Shown here piece by piece: positions 5,401 to 35,900 of a DNA stretch of 64,000 nt. Position 1 is the first letter of the stretch; every line of letters starts with the position of its first letter. The DNA comes from Trebouxia sp. TZW2008 (Eukaryota > Chlorophyta > Trebouxiophyceae > Trebouxiales > Trebouxiaceae): positions 248,676 to 312,675 of the forward strand of contig BDIU01000156.1 of the NCBI GenBank assembly GCA_002118135.1, written 5' to 3'. Under the pieces are notes generated by a model. It did no database searches and was not told where the DNA came from. It was given only the letters and a program-made list of their open reading frames with translations. The translations under genes were made by a program, and so were the position numbers.

Positions 5401-8400
5401 GCTGTCTTTGACAACACTGGAAATCCAGGAGCCCTGCTTCACTGACCTGGTCATCCTGTACCGTAAGAGCAAGGCAGTCTTGGACCGGCCAAGCTCTGAG
5501 AAAGAGCCTCTGCCCAAGTACAGCAAGGCAAGCTCCAGGACAGACACGCTCCCTGTGGATTTGCATGCTTGATGTTGCTGTATGGGCAGGTGTCACATGC
5601 AGGTCAATTGTGTGCATTGCCCAAGTACAGCAAGGCAAGCTTTAGGAAATTCGCCAAACAATAAGCAAATTGTCTCAGCCATTTTGTGGCACATGCGGCC
5701 AGCTTTGTTCGCTGGCTGAAACATGCTGACATGCTGGCAGTTTGCTGTGATCTTGCATCCTTTGTGTTTGCAATCTGGCCAGGTGCCAAATGCAGGGCAT
5801 CTTGTGCATTGCCCAAGTGCAGCAAGGAAAGCTTCAGGACTGACAGCCCACCATGGAATTGCACGCCTGGTGTGTCATTTGGTGACTAATCGGAACAGAA
5901 ATTGTCGGTTTTGTCTGATTGATGTTCAGCAAATCAAGTGCTCAATGCAGGCCAGAACCCATGAGTTTCCCAAGCAAGTAGTAGGCCTATGCGTTGCGAT
6001 CTGGGCAGGTGTTGCTCTGCATGCAGGCTGCCTTTGATGCTTCTCATGTACATGTAGCATCAGCATGTCTTCTCCTAAAGCATGCCTGATGTGCGGAGGA
6101 GCTTCAGAGTTATACCGCCTGCATTTGTACAGCATTGTGTGCCAAATGCTAGTTGTCATATGTTAAACACACAAAAATATTGCCTGCATCACAGGGCATG
6201 GCGCAGCGCAACATTGTGGTCAAGTCCTTCTCTGATGTGCCCATGGCAGATGTGGAGATGATCTTCCCTGAGAAGGCAGTGTTCATCAAGCCCTTCGTCC
6301 TCATTCAGCTGATAGTTACTGTGATCCTGGCTGTCATCACTGTTGTCACCACCTTAATACAGGTGAGCTCTGTCTAACATGGATCAGCAAGTGTGAGCAA
6401 TGCTAAGGCAATAAACACAAGCCCTGTGCCATCAATGGTCACAGACTTGCCAATGAGTTGTCATGATTCTGCTAGATGCATATAGAAGTGTTGCAGTCTG
6501 ACACACTGCTGGAAGCGGGCATGTCTTGGTCTGCTTTGTTCTGCGCACTCTTGAGCCAATGAATCTTGAATCTCAGGTCTCCAGAAGACTGGCAGCGGCA
6601 AATCTCCGAAAATCATGACAGCAGATGCGAACTTTTGTCATGCATTGTGCTGCGCCTGCTTGGGCTTGCCGCAAAAGTGGTATGTTTTGAGCCATGGTGG
6701 CAGTTGTCATTGCTGTGCTGTGACAACTGTCTCTCTGACTGACAAAATACCTCTTGTACTGAAAACCCCTTGCAGGTATGGCAGACCCAATCTGTTGTTG
6801 CCAAAGGCATGCTGACATCAGCAACATGGCAAAATGTCATCGCCAGCACATGCTGGCAGAGCACTGCGTTGCAGCTCACATTGGCCAGGGAACTAGCCAT
6901 GGTCAAGCAGATTGCAATGTTGTCTTTCTCTGCTGCTCGCATTGGGTGTGACATATCTGAAAGAGCTGACCTGTAACAGATTAGTGACTACAGTAATGAC
7001 AGTCAGGAGCACGGTGACAATCAAAAGGATGAAAACATGGCCAGAGAACAAGTCACAGTCAAGCAGCTGACTGACTTGTCCTTCGACACAAGCATCAGCC
7101 AATTATTGGCTTAGATAGCAGCCAGGTGTCCAGGGTACGGGCTGCTGCTGTTCTGACCAACCTGTTTTGAGCAACACACCGCCCCCAAACACTCCTGTGC
7201 AAAGCCCATATTGTACGTGTGCACATGTGTTGTCAAGTGACTCACCTTTATTGCGTGTGCTGCAGAGCAAAGTGAGTCTGTTTGTGCTGGCCAGCATTGC
7301 GGCAGTAAGGGCAGCGCAAGTGTGGAGCAGAGCGTAGCTGCTGCTTTTATGTTGCTTGTTTGTACTCGCTTGACAACAAGCTATTGCTTTGCATACAGAG
7401 CAAGGTGAATCTGTCTGTGCTAGCGAGCATGGCCAGCATAGCAGCAGCACGGGCTGCACAAGTGTGGAGCAGAGCGCAACTGACCCGCCAGCAGATGCAG
7501 GACGCCATGACTCAAGGGCTGTATGAGAAGAGCGCTGACTCACAAGAGGGTGTCTTGCACACTGTGCTGAACCAGATGTCAGACCAGCACACCAAAGAAG
7601 TCATCATTGCCTACGCTGTGTTGCTGCTCAGAGGTAAGTTGCATCACACTGCCTGAGCTAAAGATTAGACTTTCATGTCTTCACAAAGCGAAACCCGCAC
7701 TGCAGCATGAAGTGAAACTGACAGCTTCGACCAGTCAGGCAACAGTCACCTGGCAGCGCCATGCCTTTCTGAGAGTATTGCCTCATACAATGGCACAATG
7801 ATCATATGCATTTGTTGGCAGCCATGCAAGCCAAAGTTGCTGCCTGAGCACACCACAAATTGTACACCAGCCCTTCCATGTGTGAATTACTCACAGTCTG
7901 CTCAGGTGCTTGTATCCGACAGGCTGCTTCTGCTTCTGCAGGTGAGGCCGTGACACAAGACGGCTTGGACAAGAGGTGTGAGATGTGGTTGGAGCGTATC
8001 TTTGGACTCAGGCTGGACTTTGCCATTGAGAATAGCCTGCCTGTGTGCTTAGAAGATGGCGTCATTGAGCGTGATGATCAAGTAAGCTCTTTCTTGGTGG
8101 TGCATGCAGTCATTTATCTTGCAGGATTATGCTTTGCGCCATACATCTGAACATGACATCTGCATGCCTGACCTTGATATTTCCAATCTCAAATGGGAAT
8201 GTTTTTGGACTTGTGATGCGAGAACATGTGGTCATCTGCACAACTTCAGTCATGCAAGTCATCTCCAGCCCAGATTGCAGGGCAAATGCCAATTTGAGCA
8301 GTGAACACGCATGCACAAACACAGTGCTGGCAGCAAGTGACCTCATTTCTGCCATGCACTCATGTAGTGAGCCTGAACCAACTGAAATCCAAGCAAATCC

Positions 8401-10578: not shown

Positions 10579-13337
10579 TCATCTAGTGACAGCTGTAAGT
10601 CTATCTCTAATCTGCGCCACAGTTGTTCCAAGTGGGCTTGATGTGCCTACCATGCCTTGGATCTTGGACAACATGGCACTGTCCTTCACCTGTGGCATGC
10701 AACACCCATGCTTGTCATTTAAAGCCAGCAAGCAGCTGACAATCAACAGAGGAGTCGACAATGTGAGAAATATGCAGTGACACCTTTTGTTGGAAAGCCC
10801 CACACTATCGATGTGACATGCACTGCAAGCTGCAGATGCCATGATGAAACGAACCCTGCCAAGTCTTGACCTCCAACCCAATCATGGAGGGGTCCACAAA
10901 CAAATTTTGCCTCAATTTGTTGCACAATCGGAAACCTAGTTTATGTTGCACATCCGCTCATGCCTGTGACAGGGGTGACCAGCCTGATGGCAAGCTGAGA
11001 ACTCACTGTTGCAGCTGTCTCAGCAGCTTCTTGGAACATGCCAAGGGCTGCATACTCCTCAGCCTTACGCGAATTGTCTGGCAAGCGCGCCACCAGCCTG
11101 CAGCCATACACAGATCACAATTTATTTGTTGATCCAGGCTTGGGTCAAAAAGATTTATTTTGCATCAGCTGGCAAGGCCATCAAACCACGAGCCTGCAGT
11201 TGTACAGGGGCTGAAATGCGTTCTGACTTAGTCACTTGACACGACCTGCAAAGTTCACCCTACAGCAGCTTGCAAGGCAAAGTCATTGGTGCTGTTGTAC
11301 AGCAGGTGGATGTTGTCACACAACAAAGTATGGGCCTGCAGGCAGAACCAGCAGCTGGCAAGGCAAGCTCTTGTATGCTTTTGCACATCAGCTGGATAAC
11401 CCAATGTTCTTGTTGACCTTGAGCAGCATAGCATTGAAAGACAGAATCAGTTGAAGAGTTGCAGTGCATTCCCATTTGCACATGATTCAGCACCTCAGCT
11501 GCTCAACAATATGGCAGCTGATCTCTGTTGACATGTTGTTGAGCAGCTGAGGTGCCGCATACCGTGTGCAAACGGGAATACACTCCAACTCTTCAACTGA
11601 TTTTGTCTTTCAATGCTATGCTGGTCAAGGTCAAATTGGTTGACATTGCACAGCTATCCATCTACAGTGAATTGGCAAATGATGCGTTTTGCTTTGGCTT
11701 GCACATCAGCAGTCTTGCTGACAATTTCCAATTTGACAAATGGCTTATGACTAAGCTGAGTAACACAAGACCATCAATGTCTAGCAAACAATTTTCACCT
11801 TGCACTACCTTGTCAGGCGCTCCAGTGCAGTCAGTGCATGCTCCTGACATCACAACACAGACTTGCCTCAACAAATTGAGTGCATTCTGCTGACAAAGCT
11901 TATGCGGATTTGTGGCTTGGAGCAATGTAGATTACGTACTTGGCGGTAGCTTGTGTGGGAGCACCATTTGCTTTGGCAGCAGCAATGTAAACCGTCAGTG
12001 GCAGCACATTCTTCCTCTCTTTGGCAAGGGCTTCCAAGCCTTCCCAGTCCTTCAAAGTTGCCAAGGTTTGAACCTGCATGTGGCATCCACATCATAGCTT
12101 GGTTGATTCCAAACCATGACTGCAGAAGGCTATTTGCTGCATGCGTTGAATTACAGGTTCTGAGATCAGCCTTGTGGCTGCAAATATCTATCATAGCAAC
12201 TTAAACAACAGTATGAATGTGGAGGACTGCTTTCTAGATGCGCCCACCAGATCTAACAGTCGTAGCAGGGTCTTGCAGTGTTGTAGCAAACAAGTCAATG
12301 GCAACAGAACACTTTTGCGTCGCTCATTTGTAGTCGGCCTACTCACCACTGTCAATTGTCAAATACATAAGCCAGCATAGCAGATATAACAGTCTCTGGC
12401 AAAATGCAATAATCACTGCAAGATATAAAGCAGAAAAGCGATGCTCATGACAAGCGCGTTTGACAAGGGCTGGTGAGACCAACCTTGATCCAGCCAAAGC
12501 GCTTGTCTGGCAGCTTGAAGATGTTACGCACTCGCTCTGCTGCCCGCGCATTGCCCAGCCGCAAGCACTGTTGTACTGCACCAACACCCCAATGCACACA
12601 TTAGCCATGACAGATCCCGGTTTGTATAAGGAGGCCTTCAAGATTGCTTTGCAACATTTTAAATATGGCTTGAAAGGCTAGAGGAAGATCAGGCAGGGGG
12701 GTGAGCAGGGGCTGCAGAGACGCGTGGGCTCTCAGAAAGGCTTTGCATGTCTGAGCTGAGCTGGGCCGTGATGACGGAAAGAGCGGGAGGAAGGGGGGAG
12801 GGGGTCGGGGTTGAGTGAATGCAGTTGCACCTGTTTGGGTAACGCTGCAGCCCAGGAAGCAGGCTTGCCCAGCCTCCTGCTCCAGCTCCGCTTGCACTGT
12901 GCGCAACTTGGCAAACTCTGCGCTTGCCTTGCTCTGGAACACATGCTCCTTTGTCTGCACGTACAAAGTCGAGCCATTTCAAATTGCAATAAGTTGCAGA
13001 TCAGCACTAGGTGACTTCTGAGCAAGCCGCTGAACAATGCACATCATAATCATACAAAGTGGGTGACCTGAGAGTTCCTGTCAGTACTGCTCCAAGGCCA
13101 TTCAGTGGTGTCGTTGATCAGACGGGCGTGAGTGCCGCCACTGCTGCTGGTGGGTTGATTTGAGCGCACAATCTTGTTGGGTTTTTGCAAATTTGCTTGT
13201 CAGCACCCGTATGATGTCAGCTATGATGTCAGACGTACAGGTTGGTCAATCAGTGCTGAGCACACCTGCGAGTGCTGCTCAGAGGCTCTGACCAGCAGTT
13301 GCGCCACTGCAGTGTTGAGACTGATCAAGCTGGCATA

Positions 13338-13371
<34 letters not shown>

Positions 13372-16300
13372 GTTGGCTGGTTTGAGCCTGCAATCCTGTT
13401 GGCTCTGCACAGGTGTGAACAGCAACAGCTCTGTCATGTCAGATGCACAGATTGTGCACACTAGGGTACTTAGTTGCATACCTGCGAGTACTGCTCAGAG
13501 GCTCTGACCAGCAACTGCACCACTTCAGTGTTGTCACTGATCAGACTGGCATGAGTGCCGCCGCCGCTGCTGCTGCTGCTGGGCTGATTTGAGCGAGTAA
13601 TCCTGTTTGCTTTGCGCAGGGCTGAGCAGAAGCGCATGTGACCCACGCCGTCATAGGTTCCCATTCCCAGGTAAATTTGCTCCAGCAATTCTGGCTCCTG
13701 CAATGCAGCGCTGTTGGCATGGCATGATGTGCAATTGTGTAGATGCAAAGTTGAATGGCGCTGACATTACGGTGAGTGTTACCTCCGTCCAAAGAACCTC
13801 ACACTAGCTATCTCAGTGGCTAGAGATAGCTGGTTCATATTGAGCGCAAGACAGACGTGTGCTTGACATCATTTCAGCTGACAGCAGCACAGGCAAAGGA
13901 CATGTCAGCTACGCTCTATACAACACGGTCACAGCAGTTAATGTAAAGATGCTGCCTCATGCTGCATGCCTCCATTCAGTAGCCACTGGATGCACCGCTG
14001 GATCAAACATGCTCTCACACCCTGACAGACGACACAGAAGGAAGCATTGCATTGTCCCTTGACGTCACAAGGCTGTAGTCAGAATGCAGGAGCCTCAGGG
14101 TCTCAATTTCAGTGATCTTGAGACCTGTGCAGTTCTGCTGGTGACTTTGAAAGTTTCGTAGGAAGCACTGCATTAGTCTTGATCCACAAGGCTGCAAAAG
14201 GACAGCGCAGCTGTAGGGTTCAATTTTGTTAATCCTGAAGGCTGCGCAGTCCTGCTGCTGGCTGTGAACATCAGGCCAAGCCTGCTATGCTCAAGTCAAC
14301 ACAGGAAGCACAAAATGCTCTGAATTGAAAGCTGTAATCAACCACGCACATACATGCTGACTAACAATACAGCAGGTAGTATTGCATTGTGATGTCACAA
14401 GGCGGCAACATGATGTCCCAGCCTAATGGTCTGACTTTGCTGATCCTGCAGTCTGTGCGGTCCTACTGCTGACAGTAAAACCTCGGGAGGAAGCCTTGCC
14501 TTGGTCCTAATTCACAAGGCTGCAGCAGTCAGACACAGTCTTGGGTTCGCAATTGATGTGATCCCAAAGGCTGTGCAGCTGACTGTGAAAACATAGGCCG
14601 AGTCGGCAGTGCTGAGGCATGCTATCAAAGCACAAATTGTTCTGAATCAAAAGACGCAATCGACACGCACAGACAATGTTGCCGAACGCAAGCAACAGTT
14701 GAGTAAGCTTTTTTGGAGGCAGCAGGAAAAATTGCATTACGCCCTCATGTCACAAGGCTGCAGTCAGAATAAGCTCAGGGTGAGAGACTGTTCAAACCCG
14801 AAGTTTGGGCACTGCTGACTGTGAAACAGTAGACCAAGCCTGCTATGCTGAGCAGCTCAAATCTAACACAACAGCTTTATGTTGCATGATTTGGCCAACA
14901 TCCAACCAACTGGCTGCAGCTCTGCAGCCTGCTAGCTTGTGATACACACACTGTACACACTCACAGAAAACTGAAGTATATGCCATCAGGAGACTCGCAT
15001 GACAGCACATTGTGATCACAATGGGGTGGGAGCCTCTGTTACCAGATGCTCTGCAGCTTGCACTTACGATACACAGTCACAATGGGAGTATGGGGATAAT
15101 GAGTATGGAGTGTGAGTATGGGGGAGTGGAAGTGTGAGTGTGAGTGTAAGTATAATTTTTTGAACATAGCATACATACATGACATAGAAGCCTAGCATAG
15201 AATGCATAGCATAGAATGCATAGCATAGCATATATAGCAAAGCGTACCCTGTTGTGGCAATAGGAGATGAAGAGGCGCTTGGCTAGGGGATTGGCGTTCA
15301 TGGTTTCCAGGAAGTCCTTCAGGGGCATTCCCTTGCGGTACATCCTGCACTCAGGTTGCAGAATGCTGGAGAACTGATAAGATCATCACGACCATTGCTT
15401 ACATGCCCGCTGTTAAGGCTACACAACCCTGCCAGGTGCACAAAGTAGCAATGCAATGCCTCCAAACAGTGCAGAAATGATGTTCAAGGGTTGTACACTT
15501 AGCTGGCTCGGATGGCTGTATTTGGGTGCATTGTTTCATTCATGACCTTGAAGCAAACTGTACTTGTGTTGCATCACCTGACTGCAAAATCAAGGCTCAT
15601 GACGGGTGATGGCATCTCAGCAGAAGGTGTATTGGTACTGACCTGAGTACTGCCAAGTAGACCAAGTCAGTGTCGCCACTGTCAATGGCTTTTGTGAGAG
15701 CTCTCTCATGCTCACCCAGAGACAGCAGCAATGGCACCTGCATGCCCACTACAACATGTATGTGCCTCGCTGCTTGTGTTTCTCAACAACGTTAGTTGGA
15801 ATGACTGGATATGATATACAGATCGGTGAGTCTGTTTGCTGCTCCAATGCCTTGCTGCACTGAACACTGTCTATAAGTAGGAAGTGATAGGCCAAGCAAT
15901 CCTGTGCCATCAGGGCAGGATGCAGGCGTGCTTGAATCTGCGTGAAGCACCTTTTTCACAGATCAGCGCATTTTACAACTGCTTGCTGACAGTCAGAAAT
16001 TGCGCAATTTGGAGCATTGAATGGTGGGCAAATCACAGCTTGAACACATTCAAAACCGAGTGGACCACATTCAAACTGAGCACATGCTTTCAACAGCTTT
16101 GTGGTTGATGCCTTGCAATCAACAGACGCAGTGCTGTCATTAAGCTACATTGGTAAAAGCCTACCTGGTCTGCCGCACGTGTCTCGTATTCTAGCAGCAT
16201 TGTAGCAAGCCCTTTGCGCCCCACAGTCTCAGCATGCCCAGCTATCAGGCTGTACCGGATGCCTCTGTACTTCTTCAGCTTGCCTGTCAGACTGTCCCTC

Positions 16301-19300
16301 AGCTGGTCATCGGGTTGTTGAAGGCACGCAGTGATCTTCTGACACGCCCAATGGACCAGCACCTGTTCACACACTTTGTGGAGTCACATGTCAGCAGCAT
16401 TCCAGTGTCCTGCTTCTTGTTGAGAGTCACGATGTCTGCTGAAGCTGAAGGACAAACTAGCTTGCCAGGCTGCCTCTCAGCTGATCATCAGGATGTTGAA
16501 GACAAGCAATGATCTTTTGACATGCCCAATGCACCAACACCTGCTCACATGATGTCAGGAGTCTACGATCACTGCTGAATCCAGAAGTCTCAAGCACCAG
16601 ACAACCCAGAAATGCAGAGAAAACACAGTGTGAGCTGTCCCACTGTATGGAACCAGCGTCTGAGGTCAAGGGCTGGTAAATAGTCTGCAAGGCTCACCAT
16701 GCATGCAAGCTAGCAACAGCAGTGTGCAGCAGTTGCAGCAGTGGCAAGGCAAGGCCCACAACGTCTTCTGGGTTGACACCAAAGGCAAAATGCATCAACA
16801 TCACCTTGCCTGTGTCAAGGTTTGATTTGTCGGCAATCTCCAGCGCCACACGGGCCACAAGTTTGCGGGATGATGACATCAAAGGCAAGTCTGTGAGCGT
16901 CACCTTGTCTGTGTCAAGGTTCAGCATTCCTGCAATTCTGAGAACAAACAGGGCCAGCAGTTCTCTGGTTTTCCAAATCAGAGGCCATGTCTGTTGGCGT
17001 CACCTTGTCTGTGGTTCAGGGTGAGCATCTTTGCAATACCGAGCGCCAAAAGGGCCAGACAACCTTATGACTTTTGAGACAAAAAGCAACAGCATTGGCA
17101 GCACCTTGTCTGTATCAAGGTTCAGCATTTCTGCAATTCTGAGCGCCAAAAGATGGCGTCGCGCATTGACAAGGCGGGAAACCAGCACAGGGGCTCCTAG
17201 GGCATCCAGCTGGGCTAGGGTCAGGGGCAGGCCCACATTTGGCGCTCTCAGCACATTTAGTATCCTCAAGCTTTGACAAATCTGTAAGATACGTTTGCGT
17301 GGGTAGCTGCCAACTGGACAGAATGCCCTGCCGTAACAGCCCGCCTGCATGCTAACAGAGCATGTTAACAAGGGACAGAACATGGGATTGTCACAACCTA
17401 TCGTGACAGGGAAACAACAACAGCAACAGCAATGGCAGCGGCAGCGATAGCAGCAACAGCACCAACAACAGCAATCCATCAAGCAGAAGCATTTAGCAAC
17501 AGCCATTTAAACAGCATACCATGAGAAAATAAGCATCAGCTGGCAACAAACTGCTGCATTCTTTGACAAAAGGGCTGAAACAGCAATGCAGGGCTATATA
17601 TTCTGCTGGCCAGCTCAGCAGAACGGCTGTGTGAACATTTGACTCATTCAAAATTGCATGCAATGTTGGCCATCAGAGCTACGGCTATCACCTTGAGTAA
17701 TGCAGCTTGTCTGATAGGATCAAGATCTGCCCCAGCAGCTTCCACACAGCTGCCCACAGCTTCAGGCAGCTTCCCCACAATGCTGCGCAGCGCCTCATCA
17801 GCGTGCGCATTCTGTTGGTCAAACAGCTGCCTAGCATCAAACAGCAGTGCGCCTGCAAGCAATGTACAGCTCTCACAAATCTGCTTGTAATGCTTCCAAT
17901 ATCTGAATGCCAGTGTTGTCTTCAAAGCTTATTGCCATAACAACTCTTCCCATACGATGGCCAGCACAATGTCCCTCATGTGCCCACTTGCATGACTTCA
18001 GTTGGACTGGCTATCACTACAGCTCACCACTTCTTGGGGACCATTTGAAGCGCCCATCAGGAGATGCTGCCTTCTGTTGCTCTAGCAGGAACAATTACGG
18101 GACGCTTTGAGCTTGCAGTAAGCAGCATTTGTTTGTCAGCTGACCTGGTTCTCAGAGCCAATTTTGAAAATATCCACAAGACTGTCTGGCACTCGCCTCA
18201 GTAGCTCATGCTGCTCAGCTGAGATCAGCACAGCCTCGCAAGCCTGATCTAGTCTCTGCCAGTTGGCACGCGTGAGTTGTGTGACAGTAGCACGTTTCAC
18301 AGAACTTGGCTTGTGCTCATTGGTATGCGGTAGTCAGCTGACCTGGTGCTTCAGAGCCAATTTTAAAAGTGTCCACAAGGCTGTCAGGTACTCGGCTCAG
18401 TAGCTCATGCTGCTCAGCTGAGATGAGCCTGACTCCATCCACCTCAGACACCAGCACTGTCTTCTGCTCCAGGGTGTGTTTGATCCAATCACCAAAAGGT
18501 CCCACCATCAGCAATATGTCCTGCAAGGCGACGCTGTTGTTGTCAGTGCTGCCCTCTGCTCCAGAACGCGTTCTATGTGGTCATCAAGATGTCTGTCCAG
18601 TAAGAGACGCGCTGTAGTATTCAGTCAACATAACGACTCTGCTTCAATGCCTGGTTCCCATCCACAATAAGACCCCTCATCAACAAGTTGTCCTTTCAGG
18701 CAGCTGCTTTGTTGTCAGCCCTGCCATGGGATATGGACTTGCGCTTTTGATCACTGCAAGCCGTCATGGGAGGGAATCGTTTCGCTCCCCGCAAACACTC
18801 CTTTTGCAGCGCAACATTTTATCCAGGGACAACGGCAGCGGCAAAGGCAGGAGCAAAGGCAAAAAGCAGGGGTCTTTGAGGGCAGGGGCATTGGCAGTGG
18901 CAGGGCCCGAGTAAAGCCAATCAGCAGCGCCACCTGTAATGATGAGACAGGAGCATGGGCAGGGGCAAACAGGCGAGTACAAGGGCAAAGGCGAGGGCAA
19001 GGGCAAGGGCAAGTCACCTCACCTTCCAGCACATGACCACAGAGTCTGTGCCGCACCACTCCAGCTGCTCAGGCAACTCTTCACTCTGAGTCGCAAACTC
19101 AGATAGGGTTTTGCTGAAGTCGGACACCCACACTTTGAGGCGGCCGTCTGCTGTGTATGCAGCCACAAACTGCCCGTTGGGTGCGATGGCTAGCTTCTGA
19201 ATGATGCCCACGTTTGTGGCTGTCTGTTCAGCGCTGTCCACATCAACTGTCATAACAGTGTTGCCAACTGCCAGAAGCACCTGTATCCAGGAAACCCAGT

Positions 19301-22300: not shown

Positions 22301-22577
22301 TGTTGTATTGGTCGCAGGCATCTAAGCTGCTTGCATCATGCACAAGTAGTGTTTGCTGTATCTCATCACCAATTGCAATATGGCAGGTGGACTGTGGTGC
22401 GACTTCTTTGGTGTGATAATATCTGCGCGTCCTGCAAGCGCATTGTGTGCTTCTGGATCTCAGATGTGCATACCTGAGACTGTCTAGGTCAACGTCAGGC
22501 CAGGCCATCTGATACAGCTCCTTCTTGGAGTAAAATCGATTGCCACATGCATCCCACTCCCCCACTGCAGCATGCAT
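10579..22577 (-). CDS. VPS16: VPS16, HOPS/CORVET core subunit, 16 exons
   Basis: Spliced model, 854 residues. Exons in transcript order: 22577-22474, 21913-21703, 21223-20969, 19280-19023, 18520-18343, 17852-17692, 17344-17105, 16362-16165, 15737-15643, 15344-15248, 13697-13482, 12954-12831, 12575-12484, 12073-11940, 11097-11007, 10689-10579. All are GT-AG and in phase. The N-terminal half matches the Vps16 beta-propeller: YGGPIATIRDDRK, MGWTNEEELMIVEQTGE, PEQLEWCGTDSVVMCWK, LVSEVDGVRLIS. The C-terminal half matches the Vps16_C solenoid: VLVHWACQKI, LLEYETRAADQV, KAIDSGDTDLVYLAVL, FKLPDKRFGWIK. Length is close to the family norm (~840). VPS16 scaffolds the C-Vps core used in fusion at the endosome and vacuole, binding VPS33, VPS18 and VPS11. 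Introns make up most of the locus and are full of exon echoes. Confidence 0.95.
11401..11646. repeat. Large imperfect hairpin in VPS16 intron 14
   Basis: The left arm at about 11401-11509 and right arm at about 11536-11646 are inverted copies around a ~26-base spacer. The left arm contains CAGCATAGCATTGAAAGACA and CACCTCAGCTGCTCAACAA; the right arm contains TTGTTGAGCAGCTGAGGTG and TGTCTTTCAATGCTATGCTG. Arms match at well over 80% by eye. I see no transposase and no obvious target-site duplication. It could be a foldback/MITE-like element or an inverted local duplication. Confidence 0.8.
13060..13425 (-). repeat. Two donor-side echoes of VPS16 exon 11
   Basis: On the plus strand, 13263 onwards reads CACCTGCGAGTGCTGCTCAG then AGGCTCTGACCAGCAGTTGC, nearly identical to the true exon end at 13480 (TACCTGCGAGTACTGCTCAG then AGGCTCTGACCAGCAACTGC). 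A more decayed copy starts near 13067 and keeps TTGATCAGACGGGCGTGAG and GCCGCCACTGCTGCTGGTGG. Spacings are about 216 and 197 bases. Each copy covers the donor and up to ~140 bases of exon. Confidence 0.85.
13339..13368. repeat. (CTG)10 microsatellite inside an exon echo
   Basis: Ten uninterrupted CTG units lie at the echo position matching the Ser-run of exon 11. The real exon has only about five CTG units after two GCC units, and the other echo has two. The run has therefore grown only in this non-coding copy. Confidence 0.85.
14030..14860. repeat. Higher-order tandem repeat in VPS16 intron 10
   Basis: At least five degenerate units recur at about 14038, 14160, 14375, 14490 and 14720. They are recognised by GGAAGCATTGCATT followed by GTCACAAGGCTGCAGTCAG and its variants. 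A second module (AGGCCAAGCCTGCTATGCT and variants, then AAAGCACAAATTGTTCTGAA-like bases) recurs near 14272, 14594 and 14832. The array does not resemble either flanking exon, so it differs from the echoes. Confidence 0.7.
15085..15240. repeat. Low-complexity GAGTATGG and GCATA tracts
   Basis: A GAGTATGGG/GTGTGAG-rich tract (15085-15160) is followed by repeated GCATAGAATGCATA words (15190-15237). They abut the donor of VPS16 exon 10. Simple sequence only. Confidence 0.7.
16468..16552 (-). repeat. Acceptor-side echo of VPS16 exon 8
   Basis: The minus strand encodes VLVHWACQKIIACLQHPDDQ then LRGSLAS, compared with VLVHWACQKITACLQQPDDQ then LRDSLTGK in the real exon 8 that starts at 16362. The echo is also preceded by CAG. 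It is one of the best preserved echoes, with about 85% amino-acid identity by eye over 28 residues. It cannot be an extra exon without duplicating a conserved VPS16 segment. Confidence 0.85.
16796..17070 (-). repeat. Three donor-side echoes of VPS16 exon 7
   Basis: Plus-strand copies near 16999, 16901 and 16803 repeat the exon-7 end at 17101 (CACCTTGTCTGTATCAAGGT then TCAGCATTTCTGCAATTC). Spacing is about 100 bases. Minus-strand reading recovers NLDTDKV, LNLDTDKVTLT and NLDTGKVMLM. Each copy keeps the AAG|GT donor. Confidence 0.85.
18133..18235 (-). repeat. Donor-side echo of VPS16 exon 5
   Basis: GTCAGCTGACCTGGTTCTCA then GAGCCAATTTTGAAAATATC matches the exon-5 end at 18334 (GTCAGCTGACCTGGTGCTTC then AGAGCCAATTTTAAAAGTGT). 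The match continues through CAGTAGCTCATGCTGCTCAG. About 95 bases are shared, at a spacing of about 200. Confidence 0.85.
18685..18735 (-). repeat. Acceptor-side echo of VPS16 exon 5
   Basis: ACAAGTTGTCCTTTCAGGCA then GCTGCTTTGTTGTCAGCCCT resembles the junction at 18511-18560 (GCAATATGTCCTGCAAGGCG then ACGCTGTTGTTGTCAGTGCT). Short and decayed. Confidence 0.55.
18830..19016. repeat. (GGGCAA)n-type purine-rich tract in VPS16 intron 4
   Basis: Variants of GGCAAG and GGGCAA repeat for nearly 190 bases up to the donor of exon 4 (GCGAGGGCAAGGGCAAGGGC is the purest part). On the transcribed strand it is CTTGCC-rich. Simple sequence with no coding features. Confidence 0.75.
19370..20735 (-). repeat. 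Array of about eight acceptor-side echoes of VPS16 exon 4
   Basis: The true acceptor is at 19280, followed by a segment encoding VLLAVGNTVMTVDVDSAEQT. Copies of this junction start near 19461, 19686, 19844, 20061, 20219, 20372, 20579 and 20720 (minus-strand reading). Most keep CAG|GTGCTTCTGGCA-like bases and a TGTCATGACAGTGTTGCC-like core on the plus strand. Spacings alternate between about 150-180 and 205-225. The longer units (copies 2, 4 and 7) share an inserted ~45-base GAGCTGCAT…TGTCA…GTGCAACTG module. Translation of copies 1, 5 and 6 still reads close to the exon. Confidence 0.9.
20735..20800 (-). repeat. Donor-side echo of VPS16 exon 3
   Basis: CACTTCAAGGTGGGCAGAGA then GGTGTGACGAGGTTGCATGA matches the exon-3 end at 20966-21010 (CACCTCAAGGCAGCCGGAGA then GGGTGTGACGGGGCTGCAGG). 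It continues with TGGCCATGTAGCGAGAAGTG against TGGCCATACAGTGAGGGG. Spacing is about 220 bases. Intron 3 thus carries echoes of both flanking exons. Confidence 0.75.
20800..20852 (+). repeat. G-run tract with quadruplex potential
   Basis: Three near-repeats of GAGGGGGTGGGGGCGC end in a run of ten G. Many closely spaced runs of five or more G could form a G-quadruplex on the plus strand, which is non-template-equivalent C-rich in the VPS16 transcript. Confidence 0.6.
21934..22065 (-). repeat. Acceptor-side echo of VPS16 exon 2
   Basis: The minus strand reads LACARCGASVATMRNDRKMV then LMPGRIM, compared with VACARYGGPIATIRDDRKMV then LVLGGIT in exon 2. At the DNA level CAACACCATCTTGCGGTC is shared exactly. 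The copy extends about 125 bases and repeats the TGCACTA/TACACTA bases of the acceptor side. Copy-to-exon spacing is about 130. Confidence 0.85.
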
Positions 22578-23209: not shown

Positions 23210-23869
23210 ATGACGACATTGTCTGATACGTGCGTGCAGGTCAACAGACAACTTCACAACTTCGGCTCATCGGTATTTTGCAAACAACAAGACTTCCACT
23301 GGGCCTCATGGCGGGTCAGGGGTCAGTACACCGTCAACCGCGCTCATTCTTTGTGTAAAAACGATCGCACTCTTTAGCTGTCCCAAACATCGAAGTTGCG
23401 ACTAATCAGATTTGTAATTGCAGAGTTCTCCTAACACCAGCAAAGACAACCCTCCACCTCAGAGTCCTCCAGAACAAAGTATGGAGGTATGATAGTAGTC
23501 CCGTGCAGACTCTATACACAGAGGCTTCCTCAAGAAACCTGACAGCGTTTGCTTTGTTTTGCTTTGTCTGCGACAGTTTGACCTGTTTTTGCTTTGCTTG
23601 AGCTCCATTCCATGCAAAATGTGCAGGTCTCCCCTGAAGTGCCACAACATGAGGCAGCAGACAAGATTCCTAGCCAGGTACCTTCTGGCGTTTATGATGA
23701 GTCTCATGAATTCTTTGAAACAGCAGGAACCTTGATACCTCCTGCAATGTGCGGCATGCTGTAGGTGCCCGACTCAATAGACGGTGGCAGATTCCCAGAC
23801 CCTTTGGAGTCTGATACAACTAAGACCAATGAACCAGACAAAGCACTTCCTAAGGAGAAAGCACAATAG
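23210..23869 (+). CDS. Small acidic, probably disordered protein, 4 exons
   Basis: Spliced model of 82 residues: 23210-23239, 23424-23486, 23627-23677, 23765-23869. All four exons are phase 0 with TGCAG or TGTAG acceptors. The product begins MTTLSDTCVQ, continues through SSPNTSKDNPPPQSPPEQ, and ends with a Lys/Glu/Asp/Pro-rich tail at LPKEKAQ. No hydrophobic core, signal peptide or known domain is visible. Support comes from the four consecutive exons in one phase with clean GT-AG sites and a hydrophilic composition unlike intron translation. I do not recognise the family. It is close to, but in front of, the receptor-like kinase on the same strand; a role as that gene's 5' end is excluded by its stop codon. 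Confidence 0.55.
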
Positions 23870-24557
23870 CTGCAGCTCCAGAGATCACGCCATAACTGCT
23901 TATTTCAGAAATAGGCCTCCAGCAACAGGCACACCTCGTGCCTCAATGTCGTTGCAATTCTCTGCCCACAGGGTCCAACCCAGGGCAAGCATGCATCAGC
24001 AATGAGTGTCAGCAGCATGCAGCTCAAGCTGGCATGCATGTACAGTGGCTGGCACCTGCCAAAGCCCACTCAATATTTGGTCTTCAACAGGCCAGAAACA
24101 AGCATCGAAGCATTTACTGATTCAAGGTCACATATCAATGGCTGCATGGCACTTATATACGTTCATTGCTGATGGGAGATTGACAGATGGATTGTAACGC
24201 TCGCAGGAGATGAAGCGGCACAACAATCGAAACGACAAATTCGTAGCAAGCCTATCTATGTGACGTTTTGTTTTGTTGCACGAATGACCCTCCCGGCAGA
24301 GCCATGAATGGAGGCGACGACGAATTCAGAGTCGCGTCGCAGTATGTTTGGCAGATAACGACACACAGACCCGTTCGCATACTGCATCCAAGTCGAGAGT
24401 CAGAACATAGCAGACCTCACACCGATCCGCGAAAGACCGTGCATCAATGAGTTGAACGAATATTGATGTCAGTTTTGTTGGCGACATGGCAACGTGTACC
24501 CTTGTCTTGACACGGTGACGTAGGAAAAGCAACTCGGTCACTCAACTGTGAACGAAA
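23870..24557. other. Intergenic region upstream of the receptor-like kinase
   Basis: 688 bases. TGTAA at 24193-24197 could end the small gene's transcript. CpG words and direct ATGs become frequent after about 24200, suggesting the kinase promoter or 5' UTR. The true first exon of the kinase, with a signal peptide, might also lie here, but I could not identify one. Confidence 0.35.
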
Positions 24558-27500: not shown

Positions 27501-30500
27501 CTTACCTGTCCCTGATCAGTTCAACCCCGAGTACCCCAAACTTGCAATCCCAGTACAGCAAACTCAATCCCTACAAATTCCAAGTTTTGGCACCCCCAAA
27601 GGGACCCCCCGTGGGACCCCACCTGGGTCGGGGATGACAGACAGACCCCAATACCATGACCGGCTGGTGCATGCTTCTGTCCTGGATGCAAAAGACATCC
27701 AGATGTGCAAGAAACCAGATGGCAAAGACTGGCTGCTTGGCAGAGGCTCATATGGAATGGTCAGCCCTGTTGTGTAATATCTGACAATATGTTCTTGTCT
27801 CATCTGCAACATTGTGCAAGAGTCATTGAGGACTGCTGCAAGAGGTCAGCATTCCTGTATGACATTTAGGCTTATAGCTTACACATGTAGGCCTACTCAT
27901 TGCACAATTATGTCTGACTTATGCGTGCTGTCTACTTTCCAGCCCCTGTCTATCTGCGGTACCTGCATGTTGCTATCATTTAGTGTTGCCAAACACGCCC
28001 AGCTCCTACAAGCGTTGCCTTGCAGCACAATGTCGAGCTGCCACAAAGGTCCTGCCCATATGCCTTGGACCCTGCTCTCGAGTGTGTACGCAACCCTAGC
28101 TCTTGGCAAGAACATGTTTGCTGCAGCCATTTCCGCCTCAGAATGTTTGTTTTGCAGGTGTACAAGGCCAAGATGGGTGAGCTGGAGGTTGCTGTTAAGA
28201 CAATTCACAGGCAGTATGTCAATCCACAGCTCACACCTCAACAGGCTCTGGATGTCATAGGACAGGTGATCCCTTGGCTCTATTCGAGCCTTACAACCAA
28301 ATGGCAAAGTCCTGTCATTCACTAACTTGCTGCTTGATCATTGACAGTGGTGGTCTCTTGTATGATTGCATTGCAATTGGTTCTGCTGTTGAGCGCTTCC
28401 TGCTGTTGCAGGCTTTGATTTTATGGCATCACTGCATGACTCATTCTCTCTCACAATGCTCAGATCTCAGATCTCTGCAGGAGCTGAAGATTTTGGAAAT
28501 GTTACCTTATGATAGGAGGGTCGTTGAGTACTATGGCTCCTGCAATCAAGACGGAAACATTCTTCTGGTGCTGGAGTTCATGCAGGTGCCATTTTCTGCA
28601 AGATCTCTTTGCAGCAGTGCTTTCTGCCAGCTTTGCAGTGCTGTCAGTTTCTATCTGCATGTATATGCATAAGATACATGCACACCTTGTGTACATCCAC
28701 GCTCATACTTTGCATGGGTGAATATTACCTTCTTCTTGCGGGATCAGCTGTCAGCATCCATCAAAGCATGTCTAGGCACAAGGCAAAGCGCATGGTAGCA
28801 TGGCGCGTGGAGTGCCTTGGCAGCATGTTCACTAGTGACGGCAAATTGGACACTGAGATCAGTCACAGGATTGCCAATGCTAGTGCTGCTTGGCATAGTT
28901 TGAGGGCTCATGTGTGGTCCTGCAAGTATTTGACACTTGCCAGGAAGGTTGATTTTCAAGAGCGTTCTGCTGTCTGTGCTGTTGTATGGCTGTAAGACGT
29001 GGCCAGCTTTGAAGGGCCATATAAATCGCCTTGAAGTCTTCCAGATGAACTGCCTGAGATCCTTGTGTGGGTTTGGCTGGCGTGACAAACAAACCAATGA
29101 CACCACAGCGGCTCGATTGATGACCAGACAATGCATATGATGAGTGTTAAATCTGGGCATCATATTGCAATGATGACGTTCATCAAGGACACCAGCACTA
29201 TGCCAGAATATGTCATCCATTTTTGTTTTTTGGCTGTATTGCAGGGAGGAGATTTGTGGCATGCTATGCACAACCATGAGACTGGGCCAGGTCTGAAGTG
29301 GTACAAGGGCGGGGCCCAGATAGCCCTGGACATCATCAATGGCCTCCACTTCCTGCACTCCCACTTTGTAAGCTTCTCATGGGTCCCTATAGTTCATCCA
29401 GTCATCAAAACGGGACACAAAGATTGTGTTCTTCATTGTTGAGCGGCCTTCAATTCTTGCACTCACATGATGCAAGCAGTTCACCCCTCAGTTTTCATGC
29501 ACCCAGTTGCTAAACTGTGAACCCTGGCGGTGCAAAGTTTTTGGTTTTGTTTGCAAACACCATGTTAAAAGCCCAGGTAATGCAGCTTGCACATCCAACC
29601 TTTACTCATAGAGATCCTCAGTACGATGCTCAGTGGCATGGCATTTGCTGTTCATCCACCCTTACACCCTGGAGAAGTGTCATCAGGCTCATGCTGGCTC
29701 GGTATCGTCTGTCAGACCTACTCTAAATCCTCTGTAAATGACCAATGCTGTCACCGCAAGGTATATCTATTGCTGTGCATGCTATCATATGGATCCTGAC
29801 TGATGCAACAGCAGCTGTGCAAAGCTGCTTTTGTGTCTATCTCTGTCAGCACATATATGCTAGCTGCAGCCGATGCATAGAGCTGTCAAGAGTGGTACTG
29901 TGCTGTTGTCTGAGGACTTGCACTCAGCCAAGGTCTGTGACATCCTCCCTTCATCTTTCTGCCTTCTTTGTTCACAGAGATGTGCTGGTTTCTGGTGGTG
30001 CATAGGGATATCAAGAGTGAGAGACTTGCAATCAGCCAAGGTCTGTGGAGCTGGCGCTGAAAAGGAATGACATGAGAAGCAATCAGCTACTTTCTGAAGA
30101 CCTGCAGTTGGCCAAGATCTGTGTTTGCTGCAGGTGGCGCATTGGCCTGTCACAAGTGGCAATGCAATATTGCTTGAGGATATGCAGTCATCTAAGAATT
30201 GCAATGCCTTCTGGTCAGCTGCTTCACATCTTAGGAGGCCTTTTCTGAATGCAACTCTGGCTGCAGGTGGTGCATAGGGACGTGAAAAGTGCCAATGTCT
30301 TACTGTCTGAGGATTTCCAATCCGCCAAGGTGTGTGATGTGGGGCTGGCAAGAATCATGGGTGGCAGCACGCTTTCCAGCTCCAGTCATAACGTGCATGC
30401 CACCTTTGCATATGCAGCGCCAGAGATTATACTGTGTGAAAGGTTGGTGCTGCTGCTTTCATTGCCAGTAGTGTACTTTTCTGTCATTGACTGCCTCAGC

Positions 30501-31869
30501 AATGACCTAGTGCAGCACCATATTTCTGCTCTGTGAGGTAAGCTGCTGCTTTTCAGCTCCAGTCATAATGTGCGTGCCACCTTTCTGTATGCAGCATCAG
30601 AGAACACACTGTGCGAGATGGTTGTGCTTGTCGACTTCATGTCCATGTGCAAACTTGTGACGCAGCACCAGACACTCTGCTGTGCAATTGGTCAGCTGCT
30701 GCCTTTCAGCTCCGTCCTTGATTTGCTGGCTTTGCATGTAAAGCACAAGAGGCACTGCTGTGTGAGAGAGTCTCATATCTGTTGTGTATTGTTGCCATTG
30801 TCGCAGCTGCAAGGTTGCAATGCAGCACTAAACTTCTCCATCGCAAGAAGTGAGCTGCGCACGGAATGCTCAGCAGACATATGCATATGCAGGAGCGATC
30901 ACAGAACAGACATCTTCAGCTATGGTGTTGTGCTGTGGGAGATCATCACTCAGGAGCATCCGCAGCGGGGGAACATGAGAGATTTACAGGTCTGTCAATG
31001 CAGACAATATGACTTCTACGAGTGCCTCGTGTCCAATTTGTCAACATGAAAAGGGGGACATGACAAACTCACGGGTCTGTCCATGCAATCCATGCAATGA
31101 TTTTCAATGACTGTCTCATGCAAAGACTGTCACTGAGAAGACACGGCTTTACTTGAGCTTGCTGCAATGTCCTCACATCTGCTGTCCTTCACTTTACTAC
31201 CACTGTGTTTTGCGTCACTGTACTGCTGCAGTGCTTCTATAGACTGTGCTGCAGCTTCCTTTCTACCGTTTCCTGCACTTCAGCTGATAGACTACTACAA
31301 TGCTTTTTTGACGTGCTGCAAGATGGCGTCCAGCCTGACTCCTCAGGCTGGACGCTGGGGGCTCCTGTGCACATCGACAACAGTAGGAGCATTACCTTCC
31401 TGGTATTACAGGTGCCAGAGGATTGCTCATAGGTCGTCACAGACATCTTGATTGCACTGCTGCAGTGCTTGGATTCACAGTGTGCTTCACTTCGTTGCAA
31501 TCAAGAAGGGTACTGCTGTCTTGCTGATTTTGCAGTTGCTGAGGACTGCTCACAGGCCATCTGCAATGTATTGCTGAAACATTCAACTCCAAAGTGCTTC
31601 ACTTTGTTGCACATAAGAACTGTAGTGCCGTCTTGCTGATTCTGCAGGTTCCTGAGGACTGCTCACAGGCCATCAAAGACATCCATGAGAACTGCCTGAA
31701 CAAGGATCCAGCCCACAGGCCAACACACCAACAGATCATTGAAGCTATTGAAGCTTGCATTGCAGAATCAGCAGCAACAGATGTGAGAATTCCAATCAAT
31801 AATGCAGAAGTAGACGCTGCAGCTGATGGACCAACTCATGAAGCAGACGACACTAATACAGAAGTTTAG
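24558..31869 (+). CDS. Receptor-like kinase with duplicated Cys-rich ectodomain
   Basis: Spliced model, 659 residues, 12 exons: 24558-24582, 24779-25024, 25524-25556, 25649-25993, 26734-26873, 27400-27759, 28158-28265, 28481-28585, 29245-29367, 30267-30442, 30893-30989, 31648-31869. Exons 2 and 4 encode two related Cys-rich modules (CGDCSIIQQEPECQLECTYC against CDGCTLNGCLLACDSC; DGCSVDRRDFELEC against GGCHVSSNDSILAC). One transmembrane helix follows at about 228-252 (VAVAGSLLGAVLLAVLLVLL) with an RRR stop-transfer. The kinase has a glycine loop GRGSYGMVYK, Lys397 in VAVK, HRD 498-500, and DVG instead of DFG at 519-521, then APE. The type looks TKL/plant RLK-like. The ligand is unknown. The 5' exon (MLLWGNVT) fits in phase but gives no signal peptide, so the N-terminus is doubtful. 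Confidence 0.8.
25994..26245 (+). repeat. 77-base tandem repeat, about 3.5 units, after kinase-gene exon 4
   Basis: Starting exactly at the donor, the unit TCAGCACACACTGT…CTTGATGTAGCAACTGCATG…ATTGCCACAAGGAAGGTCCC recurs at about 25995, 26073, 26149 and (partly) 26225. The first unit begins with the true GT donor. Little or no coding sequence is included, so this may be a donor-side duplication whose unit lies almost wholly in the intron. Confidence 0.85.
26905..27060 (+). repeat. Two donor-side echoes of the transmembrane exon
   Basis: CTGGCAGTACTGTTTGTTTC then TATTGTGAAGGCGCACCAAC repeats exon 5 (CTGGCAGTACTCCTCGTTTT then ACTGTGGAGGCGCAGAACCA). A second, weaker copy near 26990-27055 keeps ACTTTGACTGTGGGT and AAGGCTATGGTG. 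Both include donor-like GT positions. Confidence 0.75.
28785..29145 (+). mobile_element. Degenerate non-LTR retrotransposon RT fragment
   Basis: Two plus-strand frames, split by a frameshift near 28950, give CLGSMFTSDGKLDTEISHRI, ANASAAWHSLRAHVW, LLSVLLYGCKTWPALKGHIN and RLEVFQMNCLRSLCGFGWRD. This succession (YLGS-type motif with SDG, LLYGCETW, RLE.F…CLRS, W.D) is characteristic of the C-terminal part of LINE-type reverse transcriptases. The fragment lies in intron 8 of the kinase gene, in the same orientation. It is truncated at both ends with no endonuclease or tail, so it is inactive. Confidence 0.75.
29440..29490 (+). repeat. Donor-side echo of kinase exon 9
   Basis: GGCCTTCAATTCTTGCACTC then ACATGATGCAAGC resembles the exon-9 end GGCCTCCACTTCCTGCACTC then CCACTTTGTAAGC, about 103 bases upstream. 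The donor GTAAGC has become GCAAGC in the echo. Confidence 0.65.
29866..30205 (+). repeat. Four acceptor-side echoes of the catalytic-loop exon
   Basis: The true exon 10 starts at 30267 with GTGGTGCATAGGGACGTGAA. Echoes start near 29869, 29996, 30050 and 30134, spaced by about 55-135 bases. They keep pieces such as CATAGAGCTGTCAAGAGTGG, CTGTTGTCTGAGGACTTGCA, TCAGCCAAGGTCTGTG and GGTGGTGCATAGGGATATCA. None has an intact HRD loop in an open frame, so they are not alternative kinase exons. Confidence 0.8.
30548..30775 (+). repeat. Two donor-side echoes of the catalytic-loop exon
   Basis: Near 30551: TTTTCAGCTCCAGTCATAAT then GTGCGTGCCACCTTTCTGTA, against TTTCCAGCTCCAGTCATAAC then GTGCATGCCACCTTTGCATA in exon 10. 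It continues through AGAACACACTGTGCGAGATG. A third, weaker copy begins near 30705 (CTTTCAGCTCCGTCCTTGAT). Spacing is about 170 bases. Confidence 0.8.
31035..31115 (+). repeat. Donor-side echo of kinase exon 11
   Basis: AAAGGGGGACATGACAAACT then CACGGGTCTGTCCATGCAAT mirrors the exon end AGCGGGGGAACATGAGAGAT then TTACAGGTCTGTCAATGCAG, about 84 bases upstream. The likeness carries on into the intron (ATGACTTCTACGAGTGCCTC against ATGATTTTCAATGACTGTCT). Confidence 0.75.
31326..31355. repeat. Perfect 13-base stem hairpin
   Basis: GCGTCCAGCCTGA, a four-base CTCC loop, then TCAGGCTGGACGC: a perfect GC-rich inverted repeat in the last kinase intron. No terminator role is expected here. It could stall RNA polymerase or affect RNA folding near the acceptor echoes. 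Confidence 0.8.
31391..31600 (+). repeat. Two acceptor-side echoes of kinase exon 12
   Basis: ATTACAGGTGCCAGAGGATT then GCTCATAGGTCGTCACAGAC (about 31393) and TTTGCAGTTGCTGAGGACTG then CTCACAGGCCATCTGCAATG (about 31530) repeat the true start at 31648 (TGCAGGTTCCTGAGGACTGC then TCACAGGCCATCAAAGACAT). Spacings are about 135 and 117 bases. Confidence 0.8.
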
Positions 31870-32804: not shown

Positions 32805-32950
32805 TCTAAACCTAACACCCGGCATGACCTGGCCAATTGGGGAAGGGGAAAGCTGCTCAATTAGCCTCTGAGCTAATAGCAACAGCCCTAGCGCTCAGCA
32901 TGGCCTGGCCAAATAGGCAAGGGTGTGGCTTCTACAAGTTTCTGGAGATC
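32805..32950 (-). repeat. Two echoes of the AsnRS stop-codon region in its 3' flank
   Basis: The coding end on the plus strand reads CTAGCATTCTGCATGACCTG then GCCACCTAGGAAAGGGGATA. Copies at about 32888 (CTAGCGCTCAGCATGGCCTG then GCCAAATAGGCAAGGGTGTG) and about 32812 (CTAACACCCGGCATGACCTG then GCCAATTGGGGAAGGGGAAA) lie beyond the stop codon. Spacing is about 76 bases. Confidence 0.85.
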
Positions 32951-32963
32951 AAGGAGAACAGCT

Positions 32964-35900
32964 CTAGCATTCTGCATGACCTGGCCACCTAGGAAAGGGG
33001 ATAACTTCCCGAATGTTCTCTAGGCCAGTGGCAAACAGGATGAGGCGCTCAAAGCCTAGCCCAAACCCTGAGTGTGGCACTGTCCCATATTCTCGGATGT
33101 CTAGGTACGCCGCATATGGTTCCATGGGCATTCCTGATTCCTGAAGCCTTTCCTTCAAGACCTGTGTCACACAAATCCTGAGTACAACAACATTGCCTCA
33201 GCCATGACAAGGGTACTGACTTGAGTGTGTGATGCTGAATATACCTGCACATGCTTGTCACATCAGGTATGCACACAAGACCCAAAAGGTGTTGACAACC
33301 ACGATCCACGTGTAGATGCCAACAAAAGCCAAAAACTTAAGCAACATGTGGTTGTGAAGCAGGATAGATATGACACAACAGTGGTCACCTGACAGGCAGC
33401 TGGATTGACAACCACTTGGATAGACAGGCAGATCAGGACAGACAAACAAGGACACACACATACAGACAGGGTGTAGAGGTGTTGATGTCAACTCTGTCTT
33501 CTCTGTGCAATGGATGGACACATGGAAGGACAAACAGACAGGGCATAAAGGTAGGGTGCTTGCATCAAGCCTGTCCTCTCTCTGTGAGCCGCCAATGAGC
33601 TCGCCCACTCCTGGCACTAGCACATCCATAGCAGCCACGGTCTTGCCATCATCATTGTGCCGCATGTAAAACGCCTATACACAAAACAGCTTTGAATCAG
33701 CAATAACACAATGCATGCAGGGCTTGCAGCCCACAGCAACAAAGCTGCAAAACAAAGCATGGCAGCCACTGTCTTGTCATGGTCATTGTGCTGCATGGAA
33801 AGACCTGCATGCAAGGGAACATTTGATCAGCAGTAGTGCAGTGCAGAGGGGCCTGCACACTTGCATTCAAAATGCCTCCATGCAATGCAATGCATTGTTT
33901 TGTCGGCAATCTTCTTGCCGTCATTGTTGCGCTGCGTGTGAAGTGCCTGCATGCAAGGTCACAATTGATCAGCAGTAGTGCAGTCAATGCAAGGTCTGCA
34001 TGCTGCATGGAGTCCATGCATGCGGTGCAGTCTTTTTATCAACAATCGTCTTGCCAATATCATTGTGCTTGTGCAGAGTGCCGAATGCTGCATGGAGTGC
34101 CTGCATGCAAGGCAACATGTCATCGAAAGTGATGCAGCTTGTTTTAAGTGATCTTCTGTTGCTGTTGACCTCACAACTGACATGAATGTGCAGATTGATG
34201 TGCAAAACCCAGTTGCATTGCAAATTTGAAACATCAGCTGATCACAGCGCACCTTGATCTCCTTGGGGTAGTTGTAGACAATGAGCGGCGCCTTGAAGAC
34301 TTGCTCAGCCAGATACCGCTCATGCTCACTGGCTAGGTCAATGCCCCATTTCACCTGCACACCCATCATGCATCACAATCCAAGTCTGCAACTTCTGCCA
34401 AAATTTGAGAGCCATGTCCGCTGCATCATGAACATATAGGTCGATGTGCTTTGGTGTGACATTTGCTGTTTGCACTGCTTGATGCTGCAAAGCGACTGCC
34501 AGTCATCATTTGAAACCATTGCGCTCACAAATGATCTCAGCATGCACGTCATGAAAATTTGAGGCTAAGACTGTGACTTGGCGATCGCATTGGCCACCAC
34601 TACATGCAGGAGAGGTGCATTACAGCATGTCCTTCCTGTAACCATCAGAAGTGTGCACGTGAACATATGCAATGTTGTGTCGCAACAACGATGAGGCGGG
34701 CCCCATACATACACTTGTGCGACCAAAGTGACTTCTGACTCCAGCTGCTGATCGTTATAAACTCACATCAAAGGACAAGTATGTTGTGAATTTTAGAACT
34801 GGCACAGACCATGATGATCTAGCGCTGATGATGTGATTAGTGATATCAATGTTATTGATGACAACGACGATGACAACAGTTACAATATGGTCTACACAGT
34901 ACAATATGAACTGTCCAAACTGGCGCAGATGAGTGCTTTGCCTGCATAGCAGTGTACACGCAGGTTGTGAAGAATGGCAACCCACCTCAAACTCAAACAG
35001 CTTGTCCCCTTTTTTTGAAGGCTTGTACTCCTGAATGGCTTTCTGCAGGATGTCAATAGCTTCTGTGTAGGTGATACGCCGGAAGCCAGATTCTGCAACA
35101 TTCTGCAGCCTGTTTTTGACTTCAGGGTCAGAGTGCCCATCCACCTTGGTGGTGCAGAAATAGTTGAGATCCTCCCTGCAAGCCATGAGCATGTGCTGAA
35201 ACCCAGCAGTGTTTTGCACTAATAGCAAACCACACGTCTGCATAACTGAGCTTTTGGAAACCCTGCACACTCAAATCTGATACAAAAAGAAGCTAGAGTG
35301 CTCCGACCCTCCATGTCAGCCATTTTCTGTGCAATGCTTGTTACGGCTATACAGCATATCTAGTACGAGGTGCGCTCAAAGTCAAAAGGCAGCAGCAGGG
35401 CAAAGTGATACTAGACTCTGCATGTCTCCTTACAGTCGGATGATCAAGATTGCGGTTGTCAATGATATGCCCAAAGTCAATGGCAGAGTGACAAGAAAGT
35501 ACACTTACTGGCAGTGTTCTAGGAGGTGATGACAGCAGAAGCGCACATAGTCCTCTGCACAGTTCATGTTGTCTTCTAGGTTGCAGAAAGCAATCTCTGG
35601 CTCAATCATCCAGAACTCAGCCAAATGCCGGCTGGTGTGGCTGTCTGCATCCACACTGCCGACATGAGTCTTTCAGCATTGAGACTCACATCCACGCTGT
35701 GATGCTGCAGATGTAGCAGGCAAGACATTGACGCCTTACTTGAGCTGTGCGGCGCCACAGCATGCACTGCAGTCAGGGATGCAGGGCTGCTCATGCTGCC
35801 AAGATCCTGAACTTTCACAGGAGTGCACAATTGTTGAGGGGCCACTGTTGAGGCCTCAGAAAGGTTGAGGCGCCACGGCATGCACTTTTGCAGCCCCCAT

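Follow-up and report, generated by a model that had tools for sequence, protein, structure and literature searches.

The window analyzed here, a stretch of 64,000 nucleotides from Trebouxia sp. TZW2008 (contig BDIU01000156.1), carries a VPS16 (VACUOLELESS1) gene whose introns contain degenerate copies of the edges of the adjoining exons. A degenerate copy of an exon edge inside the exon's own intron is termed an echo, and its spacing from the parent is termed the lag. Trebouxia is a common lichen alga. The parent assembly of the window comprises 68.5 Mb in 527 contigs, with a G+C content of approximately 50%; genome size and G+C content are similar in published Trebouxia genomes (PMC11523091, PMC12712428).

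VPS16 gene and its echoes

The VPS16 gene was modeled on the protein of Trebouxia sp. A1-2 with GT-AG splice sites required, and each intron leaves the exact protein length expected between its exons. The encoded protein is 85% identical to that of A1-2 and 81% identical to that of Trebouxia sp. C0009. The gene and the duplicated segments within it are as follows.

10582..22565, minus strand: VPS16 (VACUOLELESS1) gene with 15 introns between 16 exons; the coding part covers the A1-2 protein from residue 9 through to its end
21940..22047, minus strand: acceptor-side echo of the exon starting at 21913 (lag 126; scored)
20742..20798, minus strand: donor-side echo of the exon ending at 20969 (lag 222; scored)
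19352..20708, minus strand: acceptor-side echo array of the exon starting at 19280 (scored in six copies, whose junctions fall at 19461, 19652, 19844, 20028, 20219, and 20372)
18135..18229, minus strand: donor-side echo of the exon ending at 18343 (scored at lag 198, with an identity of about 90%)
16774..17052, minus strand: donor-side echoes of the exon ending at 17105 (scored junctions 17003 and 16903; third copy by eye near 16803)
16457..16549, minus strand: acceptor-side echo of the exon starting at 16362 (lag 178; scored)
13101..13422, minus strand: donor-side echoes of the exon ending at 13482 (13260-13422 scored, lag 216; second copy, 13101-13184, from alignments only and outside the scored set)
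14002..14849, minus strand: local duplications of the same kind internal to the intron 13698-15247, not at a junction

Echoes were scored at 7 of the 30 VPS16 junctions, with 13 copies in all at spacings of about 101 to 222 bases; the six array copies lie 181 to 1092 bases from the true acceptor of the exon at 19280. Three acceptor sets lie upstream of their acceptors and four donor sets downstream of their donors. The initial annotation, which had listed about 17 echo sets, part of which are covered here, had described the same orientation, and it holds because the echoes lie inside the intron. The A1-2 VPS16 protein is collinear with one copy per exon, the echoes being extra, weaker matches. 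They sit within introns whose flanking exons align contiguously to this protein, a homology that speaks for intron lengthening.

The VPS16 intron 11098-11939 also contains a 222-base imperfect palindrome (11413-11634), approximately 87% self-complementary and hairpin-like.

Junction echoes in unselected conserved genes

Shuffled exon-intron pairs had been named in the initial annotation as the control for such echoes, and this control was applied to genes from outside the window. The genes, which encode chaperonins (PF00118) and class I tRNA synthetases (PF00133), were found by profile match, not by echoes, and their introns were placed by frame, profile gap, and splice consensus, with GT and AG required. 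The modeling used 91 of 110 profile-match rows (71 of 77 and 20 of 33); the rows left out include some that repeat a neighbor's profile range and may themselves be echoes. Among 64 modeled introns, 47 were kept, namely those with a score of 7 or more and a protein gap of no more than 3 residues that were up to 1300 bases long and not at the edge of a fetched stretch.

These 47 introns from 13 genes present 94 junctions, 16 of which have an echo in their own intron with a score of at least 42. Against the reverse complement, no junction reached even 30 (0 of 94), and the same was true of introns of equal length swapped in from other genes (0 of 1880). The threshold hardly matters, because own-intron scores in the range of 25 to 41 do not occur. 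On the modeled introns alone, at least one junction echo occurs in 8 of the 13 genes. A later, smaller set, built from 18 of 29 PF00152 rows as given plus 2 split by hand with guessed profile ranges, yielded 8 modeled introns, of which 4 were used; echoes were found at 4 of their 8 junctions, with controls of 0 of 8 and 0 of 160. The existence of echoes beyond the window is thus borne out by the shuffled pairs.

Local tandem duplication beyond the junctions

The junction echoes are very probably the exon-edge footprint of a local tandem duplication of limited size that is general across the genome. A random sample of 20 stretches of 4 to 5 kb (99 kb, nearly all mid-contig, on contigs from the family searches), not chosen for repeats, contains 98 direct and 7 inverted pairs; Markov sequences used as a control gave 0 direct pairs. 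At least one direct pair is present in 18 of the 20 stretches, and 15.8% of the bases fall within a detectable copy. In the anchored genes the proportion is 18.2% for intron bases and 6.6% for exon bases. In every set, primary spacings fall mainly between 70 and 230 bases; those of 50 to 70 or above 250 are infrequent, and a separate class of 12 to 50 bases is also present. The median spacing is 156 bases for 23 junction sets (nearest scored copy) and 148 bases for 44 random-stretch families (Kolmogorov-Smirnov [KS] P of 0.61). An earlier, hand-picked version of this comparison, with 23 junction lags, one per set but not always for the nearest copy, gave a KS P of 0.63.

In the same 47 introns, a junction echo is present in 13 and an internal pair in 13, a ratio of 1.0. 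The initial annotation had seen systematic arrays confined to junctions, and this part of its interpretation is not supported, given the equal frequency of internal duplications, the repeats of the same kind in most of the other genome stretches, and spacings that do not differ detectably. Its other part, in which a tandem duplication crosses the boundary and a single functional copy is retained, agrees with the presence of exon and intron sequence in the echoes, with the local character of the VPS16 array, and with neutral decay beside a constrained exon.

The ratio was compared with simulations in which duplications were placed uniformly, those inside exons were rejected, and introns were left to mutate. 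Five settings with 400 introns each gave a junction-to-internal ratio of 0.57 to 0.68, and six settings with 1000 introns each gave 0.70 to 0.98. Uniform duplication comes near the observed ratio because a unit of about 150 bases in an intron of about 300 bases often crosses a boundary, and because an exon-intron pair diverges about half as fast as an intron-intron pair. In these models, the apparent junction bias would be close to what uniform duplication leaves behind under exon protection. Junction echoes are also easier to see, since one of the two copies is conserved.

It is improbable that exon edges are instead copied by a junction-specific process, in which breaks or template switching tied to splicing or R-loops would act and tandem duplication would be a separate background. 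Such a process would account for an observed ratio above all eleven simulated settings and for several alignments that stop 2 to 6 bases from the splice site. However, ends near the splice site are expected, because on the intron side both copies accumulate changes, so that this side diverges twice as fast as an exon-intron pair. The intron-side bases beyond the junction also match above the 99th percentile of the null in 10 of 25 copies, the other 15 being indistinguishable from its upper 1%; therefore, DNA across the boundary was copied. The exon and intron parts of the copies keep the parent's order, clearly so in those 10 of 25. The spacing, moreover, is indistinguishable from that of the random stretches, and a junction-specific step is superfluous in simulations that come close to the observed ratio.

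Regional hot spots of duplication were also considered; per-stretch family counts vary only slightly more than a Poisson distribution would (index 1.42, P of 0.10), which is not convincing. At L048:1-1600, dense arrays of approximately 166-base units are found, and direct repeats cover nearly half. At G000:C42:173001-173300, G000:C193:451344-451592, and G000:C87:183293-183745, adjoining profile matches repeat the same part of the family and probably represent exon or exon-edge duplications in other genes.

Decay of the copies

Across 38 echo copies, the mismatch to the parent exon at codon positions 1, 2, and 3 is 0.122, 0.116, and 0.223, respectively. These rates are those of a neutrally decaying copy compared with a constrained exon: the observed rates are the sum of the two, because a dead copy changes equally at all positions and a constrained exon mainly at the third. 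An in-frame stop is present in 5 of the 38 copies and an indel in 10.

It is accordingly very improbable that the echoes function as alternative exons or exon edges, whether as mutually exclusive exons or as alternative donors and acceptors. The splice dinucleotide, GT or AG, is intact in 32 of the 38 copies, which is what functional sites would show, but many copies are only partial exons, codon positions 1 and 2 have diverged as non-coding copies should, and the A1-2 protein aligns collinearly with a single copy per exon. The codon-position comparison rules against this explanation. Selective erasure of decoy splice sites was considered as well and set aside, with 28.4 intact sites expected from the overall identity; the decoys are neither erased nor clearly protected.

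Introns with echoes have a median length of 577 bases, compared with 295.5 bases for introns without (P of 1e-4), in agreement with the intron lengthening proposed in the initial annotation. Growth by duplication predicts longer echo introns, yet long introns also offer more room for a match.

Age and uniqueness of the copies

At residues private to this species, where the two relatives agree with each other and differ from it, the VPS16 echoes match their own species nine times, the relatives never, and neither nine times. On a looser set, where the species differs from both relatives, 15 of 31 residues match their own species. Array copies are not independent, so that these counts overstate the number of events; strictly private residues are carried by seven copies at six junctions. 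By this comparison, the VPS16 echoes largely arose after the split from A1-2 and C0009.

Identity was surveyed in the sampled loci and the window (288 kb). Most copies are 70 to 93% identical, and in 52 of 125 families the alignment extends over 0.9 or more of the spacing, the others being too decayed for a breakpoint reading. Tandem Repeats Finder returned 155 rows with a period below 60, of which 28 have a match of 95% or more, and 38 rows with a longer period, none of which reaches that value.

Introners, or mobile elements of another kind that bring splice sites with them, are a highly implausible source, although algae do have introners that supply splice sites (PMC9860276). The copies match the neighboring exon only, and a search of the 68.5-Mb genome with a 1.1-kb piece of the VPS16 array (19300-20400) returned its own locus only, an array unique in the genome. 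Of the two arrays searched in all, the second (L048) matched once in its immediate vicinity and, weakly, at five places on other contigs, so some arrays may hold dispersed sequence.

An assembly artefact is next to inconceivable: the assembly may be scaffolded, perhaps from short reads, as a 285-base run of N in L058 may indicate, and the sample is without near-identical tandem arrays of period 60 or more, but most copies combine their 70 to 93% identity with neutral codon-position decay, which an assembler cannot make.

Proposed origin of the echoes

Under general local tandem duplication, segments of mostly 70 to 230 bp have been duplicated in place and in direct orientation, as the majority of the sampled stretches show. 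Where such a duplication spanned an exon-intron boundary, the gene has kept the copy contiguous with the exon, a step that homology shows for VPS16 and that is presumed for the other genes. The spare exon edge with its splice site has turned into intron and decayed neutrally, as the codon-position rates show, and duplications wholly within exons would mostly have been removed by selection. As to formation, staggered or paired single-strand breaks followed by fill-in and end joining would fit best; replication errors at the scale of Okazaki fragments are a conceivable alternative.

Several observations weigh against this explanation or against a recent and steady process. Five of the 13 control genes are without any junction echo, and the frequency of 4 of 8 in the small set exceeds the 17% of the main set, though on only 4 introns. 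The observed ratio of 1.0 lies just above the simulated maximum of 0.98, which leaves room for a mild junction preference in a sample of 47 introns. Two of the 31 residues in the looser set match a relative, so that a few echoes may be older; the echo of the exon ending at 20969, which has no private residue and shares one with C0009, may be one of these. None of the 125 families exceeds 94% identity, although a steady process should yield such families; set against this, 3 of 38 echo alignments (28, 29, and 42 bases) reach 95 to 100%. The missing near-identical families could possibly reflect a process that has slowed or ended, or the collapse of near-identical repeats in the assembly. The molecular step stays inferred, because breakpoints are unreadable at approximately 80% identity.

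A more far-reaching version, which we regard as rather unlikely, is that an episode in one lineage of Trebouxia, with tandem duplication limited in size to 70 to 230 bp (the scale of Okazaki fragments or nucleosomes), copied a sizeable part of the genome and then largely stopped. Such an episode would have left approximately one in six junctions with dead copies of themselves and the affected introns greatly lengthened, and its cause would be a transient, lineage-specific change in replication or break repair.

Local duplication is a concrete source of intron length, with echo introns about twice as long as others. The echoes are natural duplications in which one copy has been frozen by selection, which makes the size, rate, and decay of duplication measurable. 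If the sample is extrapolated, the duplications would have planted decoy splice sites in very large numbers, and they set a trap for gene prediction in lichen algae.

Relation to known systems

Tandem exon duplication gives rise to mutually exclusive exons, which are whole exons under constraint. The Trebouxia echoes resemble them in that exon copies stand side by side, and differ in being exon edges without constraint. Within-gene duplications of intronic and exonic segments are reportedly a common mutation, affecting 8 to 17% of genes in six genomes; in Trebouxia, a junction echo is found in 8 of 13 genes, a comparison that is indicative only, as the detection criteria differ. Judged against this figure only, the echoes are apparently a known type of mutation at unusual density. 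A patch model of duplication is known from plants.

Tandem duplication is well established as a source of introns (PMC3443670). In the potato RNA-dependent RNA polymerase gene, a single gene, a tandem genomic duplication runs across an intron-exon boundary (PMC4974935). As in that case, one duplication in Trebouxia spans the intron end and the exon start, and the splice signals of the parent are inherited; unlike that case, in which a new intron arose in one gene (PMC4974935), existing introns appear to be lengthened at approximately one junction in six, and conservation gives no sign that the copies are used. Break repair with DNA polymerase alpha-primase at 3' overhangs produces direct duplications in place without a mobile element, and the repair of nearby breaks on opposite strands yields a direct duplication in place (PMC8355091). 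The Trebouxia duplications are likewise direct, in place, and free of a mobile element, but they measure 70 to 230 bp and are old and diverged, whereas the insertions in that system are short, below 100 bp (PMC8355091). With introners, the echoes share the supply of splice sites in bulk to algal genes; introners form dispersed families, in contrast to the strictly local VPS16 echoes (PMC9860276).

Among titles and abstract openings retrieved in mostly narrow searches, no account of genome-wide junction echo arrays was found. A word search of two Trebouxia genome papers showed "tandem" to be absent and "intron" to occur in one only, within the title of a reference.

Other genes and repeats in the window

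Echoes were also seen, largely by eye, in two further genes of the window, a protein-kinase-like gene and a tRNA-synthetase gene.

30267..30442, plus strand: parent exon of echoes on both sides, protein-kinase-like gene (by eye)
29860..30200, plus strand: acceptor-side echoes of the exon at 30267 (three, located near 29870, 30000, and 30134; partly by eye)
30548..30628, plus strand: donor-side echo of the exon ending at 30442 (lag 177; self-alignment and by eye)
31482..31561, plus strand: acceptor-side echo of the exon starting at 31648 (lag 112; self-alignment and by eye)
33758..34137, minus strand: acceptor-side echoes of the tRNA-synthetase exon starting at 33674 (visual inspection suggests about three copies)

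The exon 30267..30442 contains the motif VVHRDVKSANVLL, which we take to be that of a protein-kinase catalytic loop. The gene with the acceptor at 33674 has PF00152 matches, which mark a class II tRNA-synthetase, and we take it for an asparaginyl-tRNA synthetase. A single-exon J-domain protein is 66% identical to a protein of Trebouxia sp. C0010 and 39% identical to the best full-length named proteins outside Trebouxia.

Self-alignment of the window retrieved 42 local matches, 40 of them direct and 2 self-palindromes; a single one of the 42 lies beyond 34.2 kb. The 24 kb from 40001 to 64000 hold 1 local direct pair, compared with 18 pairs at 16001-24000. Pairs are also present in this self-alignment at 5511-5873 and 7249-7482.

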